Assembly (NCBI GenBank): GCA_025451195.1
Contig: JANWKV010000057.1
Location: 1 to 39,551, forward strand
Source: Candidatus Microgenomates bacterium
GTDB taxonomy: Bacteria; Patescibacteriota; Microgenomatia; Levybacterales; UBA12049
DNA: 39,551 bases
Direction: 5' to 3'
Below are positions 17,079 through 17,339 of the stretch, one piece after another (within the stretch, counting starts at the first letter, position 1; the number at the start of each line of letters is the position of its first letter). The notes beneath the pieces were generated by a model. The model ran no database searches. It saw nothing but the letters and a program-made list of their open reading frames with translations, and was not told the origin of the DNA. The position numbers were made by a program, and so were the translations under genes.

Positions 17079-17339
17079 CGCGGGGTAGTGTACAGTGCAC
17101 GTGAGGCTTAACATAATGGGCCGTCTTGATAGTAATATTAAGAAAAGAATTCAGCTATATCGGTGAACCCCCATTTCTTTATGAAAGGGCAATACCGAGG
17201 GAAGACTCGCCAAGGCGAGAACCCGTAGAGACTACACGCTGAAGTCGCCTCAGGCGACAAGATATAGTCCGACACTCTGGGTAACTGGAGATTACAGATG
17301 CATAATCTCACAGGCTAGGCGCAACTCCTAGCCCCGCAA
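17079..17339 (+). tRNA. Initiator tRNA-fMet-like gene split by a group I intron
   Basis: 5' exon CGCGGGG TA GTGTACAGTGCAC G TGAGG CT | 3' exon CATAA TCTCA CAGG CTAGG CGCAACT CCTAG CCCCGCA A; spliced anticodon loop CTCATAA and the initiator C1-A72 mismatch. Confidence 0.75.
17109..17300 (+). ncRNA. Group I self-splicing intron (192 nt) in the tRNA-fMet anticodon loop
   Basis: P1 GGCU/GGCC with U.G at the splice site; P2 CTTGATA/TATTAAG; P3 TTCAGC/GCTGAA; P4 CGGT/ACCG; P5 CCC..TTTC/GAAA..GGG; P6 GGG..CTCGCC/GGCGAG..CCC; P7 GACTA/TAGTC; P8 GTCGCC/GGCGAC; terminal omega-G; P10 AUG/CAU. Confidence 0.88.

Follow-up and report, generated by a model that had tools for sequence, protein, structure and literature searches.

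Group I introns in tRNA-fMet genes are established in cyanobacteria (PMC8450103, PMC1995217), as the initial annotation of the DNA studied here had stated. In CPR bacteria, the insertion position of 16S/23S rRNA group I introns is unrelated to host phylogeny (PMC11270868), and in a set of circularised, mostly CPR genomes, group I introns made tRNAs difficult to detect (PMC8172020). The title of a 2025 preprint (doi 10.1101/2025.07.03.662931, B51 of PMC12641178) refers to group I introns in tRNA genes of Patescibacteria. Such introns are common in this phylum, where their presence in tRNAs has been recorded before.

Here we analyse one locus in a stretch of 39,551 nucleotides, called the window. 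With a probability of about 93%, it holds a Levybacteria-like initiator tRNA gene that is split at U33/C34 by a compact group I intron lacking an endonuclease gene, and that must be spliced for protein synthesis to start.

The group I intron in tRNA-fMet

On the unspliced genomic sequence ARAGORN reports no tRNA at 17079-17339. After deletion of 17109-17300 it reports a tRNA-Met(cat) of 70 nt. The Rfam model Intron_gpI (RF00028) gives a full-length match at 17099-17291(+) with 58.9 bits (E 1.4e-12), compared with a gathering score of 50. The initial annotation had placed a group I intron between U33 and C34, with a group I match by Infernal and joined exons that score as a tRNA as its consequences; both were obtained, and its coordinates are kept. 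At least 31 other genomes of the family contain an uninterrupted tRNA-fMet in which the exons meet exactly where predicted, with a gap of 0, and the exon boundaries of the interrupted gene are fixed by these empty sites. The assignment of 17109-17300 to a group I intron in tRNA-fMet is solid. The gene is organised as follows:

17079-17108 (+): 5' exon of tRNA-fMet, C1 to U33; tRNA call by ARAGORN after splicing, uninterrupted counterparts in at least 31 relatives
17109-17300 (+): group I intron, 192 nt, without an ORF, last base omega-G (17300); RF00028, exact empty sites, covariation
17301-17339 (+): 3' exon of tRNA-fMet, from C34 to A73, without an encoded CCA; tRNA call by ARAGORN after splicing, empty sites, covarying T-stem

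All helices quoted in the initial annotation, including P3, P7 and P8, are present at the sequences given there, and the U.G at the 5' splice site, the omega-G at 17300 and the P10 pairing of ATG with CAT were recovered as well. The helices are:

17105-17122 (+): P1, exon GGCU (17105-17108) with guide GGCC (17119-17122), U33.G at the 5' splice site; U.G in 25/25 copies
17116-17118 with 17301-17303 (+): P10, ATG with CAT; 96% paired in 25 copies
17125-17142 (+): P2, GUAA tetraloop; 9/9 pairs with changes of both partners in the family
17150-17243 (+): P3, TTCAGC/GCTGAA (17150-17155/17238-17243), enclosing P4, P5 and P6; 100% paired, 4/6 pairs doubly changed
17160-17164/17194-17198 (+): P4; invariant in 25 copies
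17199-17201/17222-17224 (+): P6, inside P3
17230-17269 (+): P7, GACTA/TAGTC (17230-17234/17265-17269), the guanosine-binding helix, around P8; invariant in 25 copies
17244-17249/17253-17258 (+): P8, GTCGCC/GGCGAC, inside P7
17275-17290 (+): P9, GUAA tetraloop; 100% paired, 4/6 pairs doubly changed

The RF00028 score, the invariance of P7 and P4 and the covariation of P3 identify the conserved core P3-P8 with the G-binding P7 that characterises group I introns. The guide ATGGGCC is complementary to the exon junction GGCT-CAT. Two of the three P10 pairs are formed in 25/25 copies and the third in 22/25, and a terminal G is found in all 25 family introns. Both P2 and P9 are capped by GUAA; such caps would be expected in subgroup IC3, the bacterial tRNA introns, which is a possible assignment for this intron. 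In the unconstrained minimum-energy fold P1-P6, P8 and the acceptor stem are drawn (z = -5.1, 0 shuffles as stable), while P7 is missing because it forms a pseudoknot.

To obtain homologues, 73 genomes of the window genome's family were searched. We found 25 loci, the window's and 24 relatives, in which an intron of 182-205 nt occupies the identical site. The 25 intron-bearing sequences form alignment A1, on which 45 named intron pairs were scored. Here 96.9% of the intron pair cells are paired, both sides have changed in 19/45 pairs, and none of the 500 shuffles attains any of the five measures used. When the partners are shifted by one column, pairing falls to 42-45%. Across the 25 copies, no variation is seen in P4, in P7 or in the U.G pair of the 5' splice site. 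The tRNA stems covary in the intron-bearing copies and also in a wider set. A chance fold is ruled out by the Rfam score, the shuffles and the 24 homologues with covarying helices.

The spliced tRNA and its elbow

The spliced tRNA has a CAU anticodon according to ARAGORN, and C1 (17079) faces A72 (17338), which leaves no Watson-Crick pair at 1-72, the mismatch described in the initial annotation. Bacterial initiators typically also have three consecutive G-C pairs in the anticodon stem. These are absent here, and absent in the intact relatives too: the stem TGAGG/TCTCA contains A29-U41, G30-C40 and G31.U39. The G31.U39 pair, found in 25/25 intron-bearing copies and in 21/21 sequences of the wider set (alignment A2), had been omitted from the earlier description of the spliced anticodon arm, which was correct for the CAU anticodon. 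The name initiator is based on C1 x A72 and on exclusion, without the G-C mark, and from this we infer the role of the tRNA in initiation. Elsewhere in the window, at 28458-28530, there is a tRNA-Ile with the anticodon TAT, which is unusual in bacteria.

U55-G18 and C56-G19 are key contacts of the tRNA elbow (PMC7912444). In the window's tRNA, with the T-loop CGCAACT and the D-loop TACAGTG, the canonical T54-T55-C56 with G18-G19 is not found, and the D-loop of the initiator tRNA of the class is only 7-8 nt long. We counted the elbow states in 126 parsed rows of the class, 10 of which are second fetches of the same genome (the loci include L031-L087 and L212-L281). A18 is combined with G55 in 69 of the 126 rows and G18 with U55 in 51; G18 with C55 occurs in 5, and the single row that has A18 with U55 is uncertainly aligned in the D-loop. 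Variation at position 54 is independent of this (A18 occurs with CGC and with TGC), and G19 and C56 are conserved across the class rows.

On balance, these counts favour an alternative elbow in the initiator tRNA of Microgenomates, in which G18-U55 (Psi55) would have been swapped for A18-G55 with G19-C56 kept. Both states are found within family f1 and within family f3, so the swap would have occurred more than once. TruB, the tRNA Psi55 synthase, was detected in 49/281 genomes of the class and was not found in the window's genome. It is present in some A18/G55 genomes (G591, G605, G520), and its absence is therefore not the whole reason for A18/G55. T-loops with C55 (TCC) occur in several tRNAs of the window's genome. 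Provided that the tertiary contact exists, evolution would here have exchanged a pair generally regarded as invariant, the near-universal G18-U55, and a small literature search returned no mention of such a swap. The covariation of the elbow makes it a testable case of an altered "invariant" tRNA contact.

Host group, intron distribution and a neighbouring element

Named records with the same intron belong to Candidatus Levybacteria / Levyibacteriota, with a few Woesebacteria, Shapirobacteria and unplaced Microgenomates, of the Patescibacteria group. The relatives of the family were deposited under the names Candidatus Levybacteria / Levyibacteriota, Microgenomates and Patescibacteria, which bears out the earlier guess of a CPR genome; the window's genome is tied to this group by the family that it shares with them. 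The rarity in CPR implied by the same annotation is not supported by the counts: the fMet intron is present in 25 of about 57 scorable family genomes, and RF00028 matches in 177/380 genomes sampled across the phylum and in 38/73 genomes of the family. Introns at the U33/C34 site of tRNA-fMet occur in several families of the class, and further group I introns were assigned to tRNA-Asn, tRNA-Phe and 23S rRNA by gene calls readable by eye, the only ones kept from a noisy host-gene sorting of the phylum's introns by ARAGORN. A second group I intron in the window's genome, of 227 nt, lies in tRNA-Asn(GUU) after U35 (L001, G000:C30:844-1073, - strand), and this is the only tRNA-Asn seen in the assembly.

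A cyanobacterial donor was rejected, as those matches to the fMet-intron pattern that have the tRNA exons and the intron core are all from Patescibacteria or bacteria of the same family. Matches to the pattern in Spirulina, "Cyanobacteria bacterium", SR1, Acinetobacter and others have no tRNA exons and were set aside as chance matches; two more (L189, L205) are uninterrupted tRNAs.

At window 17328-24498, an integrative element of ~7.2 kb is inserted at the 3' end of the intron-bearing tRNA-fMet. The 11 bp at the tRNA end, CCCCGCAACAC at 17332-17342, are repeated at 24488-24498. Next to the tRNA the element carries:

17328-19064 (-): serine recombinase gene, abutting the 3' end of tRNA-fMet

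In two relatives without the element (L042 and L051), the gene found after the repeat (24502) directly follows tRNA-fMet. At L048, a recombinase that is 62% identical is in the same place. There is also a weak terminase-small-subunit match inside the element, at 20151-20738.

Splicing, descent and comparison with known systems

According to our model, the guide 5'-AUG-GGCC-3' of the intron would pair first with the end of the 5' exon, GGCU (P1), and then with the start of the 3' exon, CAU (P10). In the predicted two-step chemistry, an external guanosine bound in P7 would cut after U33, and the freed U33 would attack after omega-G 17300, so that the exons would join into the CAU anticodon loop.

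A covariance model built on the spliced tRNA was run on the genomes of the class. Many class genomes have strong intact copies, most of which score 80-97 bits and the lowest about 70. In the window's genome, an 85% complete assembly, the best match reaches 38 bits and the matches are other tRNAs only, among them the neighbouring CAT tRNA gene at about 16852-16923(-), which is the one other CAT gene in the ARAGORN listings; no second intact initiator was found in this assembly. An intact initiator is likewise absent from eight intron-bearing genomes that are 93-100% complete (G007, G016, G017, G020, G023, G026, G035, G040), with G016 at 100% and G007 and G023 at 98%. The interrupted gene is most probably the sole initiator tRNA of the genome and must therefore be spliced, which makes splicing in vivo almost unavoidable.

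The gene could instead be a dying pseudogene, with the intact initiator in the unassembled 15% of the genome, as an 85% complete assembly may miss another initiator and the T-loop and D-loop appear degenerate at first sight. This is highly improbable: intact copies throughout the class normally have the same odd loops, which rules out degeneration on that ground, the genomes without an intact copy are up to 100% complete, and the exon stems covary in the intron-bearing copies. For a functional gene, it is possible but doubtful that the intron is non-autonomous, i.e. that the RNA has the chemistry and its folding in the cell depends on a protein splicing factor. Helpers are needed by many natural group I introns, and this one is very small; however, it has a complete conserved core P3-P9 and GNRA loops on P2 and P9, and all variable helices are under covariation. 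We prefer protein-free splicing as the probable mode.

The descent of the intron was compared with a host tree of FtsH from 56 genomes, FtsH being chosen after Ffh was not found. The distances of introns and hosts are weakly correlated (Mantel rho 0.28, p 0.003), in line with an intron that is inherited vertically, lost at times and not mobile. We consider this unlikely, because well supported branches of the FtsH tree force at least nine changes in the presence of the fMet intron, and the most economical account takes 14, where shuffled labels take 18, little more. Further, the introns of G043 and G059 are only ~4% different, although their hosts are not sisters and have an FtsH distance of 0.42 changes per site. 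As an intron clade, the host sisters G054/G059 are rejected with a p-AU of 0.011; the clades were named once the host tree had been seen, and the intron is short. The intron tree is poorly supported and some genomes are draft bins, so these results are evidence for, and not proof of, mobility with loss of the fMet intron. No endonuclease gene fits inside the 192-nt intron.

Two observations were made along with the host tree. Ffh (SRP protein, TIGR00959) gives no match over the cut-off in the 73 family genomes, several of them 98-100% complete, and all 14 controls match. Two FtsH frames (G040:C2:56286-59498 and G066:C64:61440-64601) contain, near residue 250-258, an in-frame insert of ~420-450 aa that may be an intein.

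Initiator tRNA genes with introns escape tRNA finders, as this one escaped ARAGORN, and the genomes then appear unable to start translation. With 25 sites that carry the intron and at least 31 that are empty, the family is a natural set for studying the spread of a tiny endonuclease-free intron through an essential gene.

The 2025 preprint (doi 10.1101/2025.07.03.662931) deals, by its title, with the same phylum and the same intron class, and the U33/C34 site in tRNA-fMet may already be included there. The rRNA introns of CPR bacteria (PMC11270868) come from the same kind of hosts and were also detected with Rfam, but many of them carry LAGLIDADG genes, and the paper is without mention of tRNA. 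As in Synechocystis sp. PCC 6803 and Gloeobacter violaceus (PMC8450103, PMC1995217), the group I intron of the window is located in the anticodon loop of the initiator tRNA. However, the Synechocystis intron is 655 nt long and encodes I-Ssp6803I (PMC1995217), whereas the one described here has 192 nt and no ORF.
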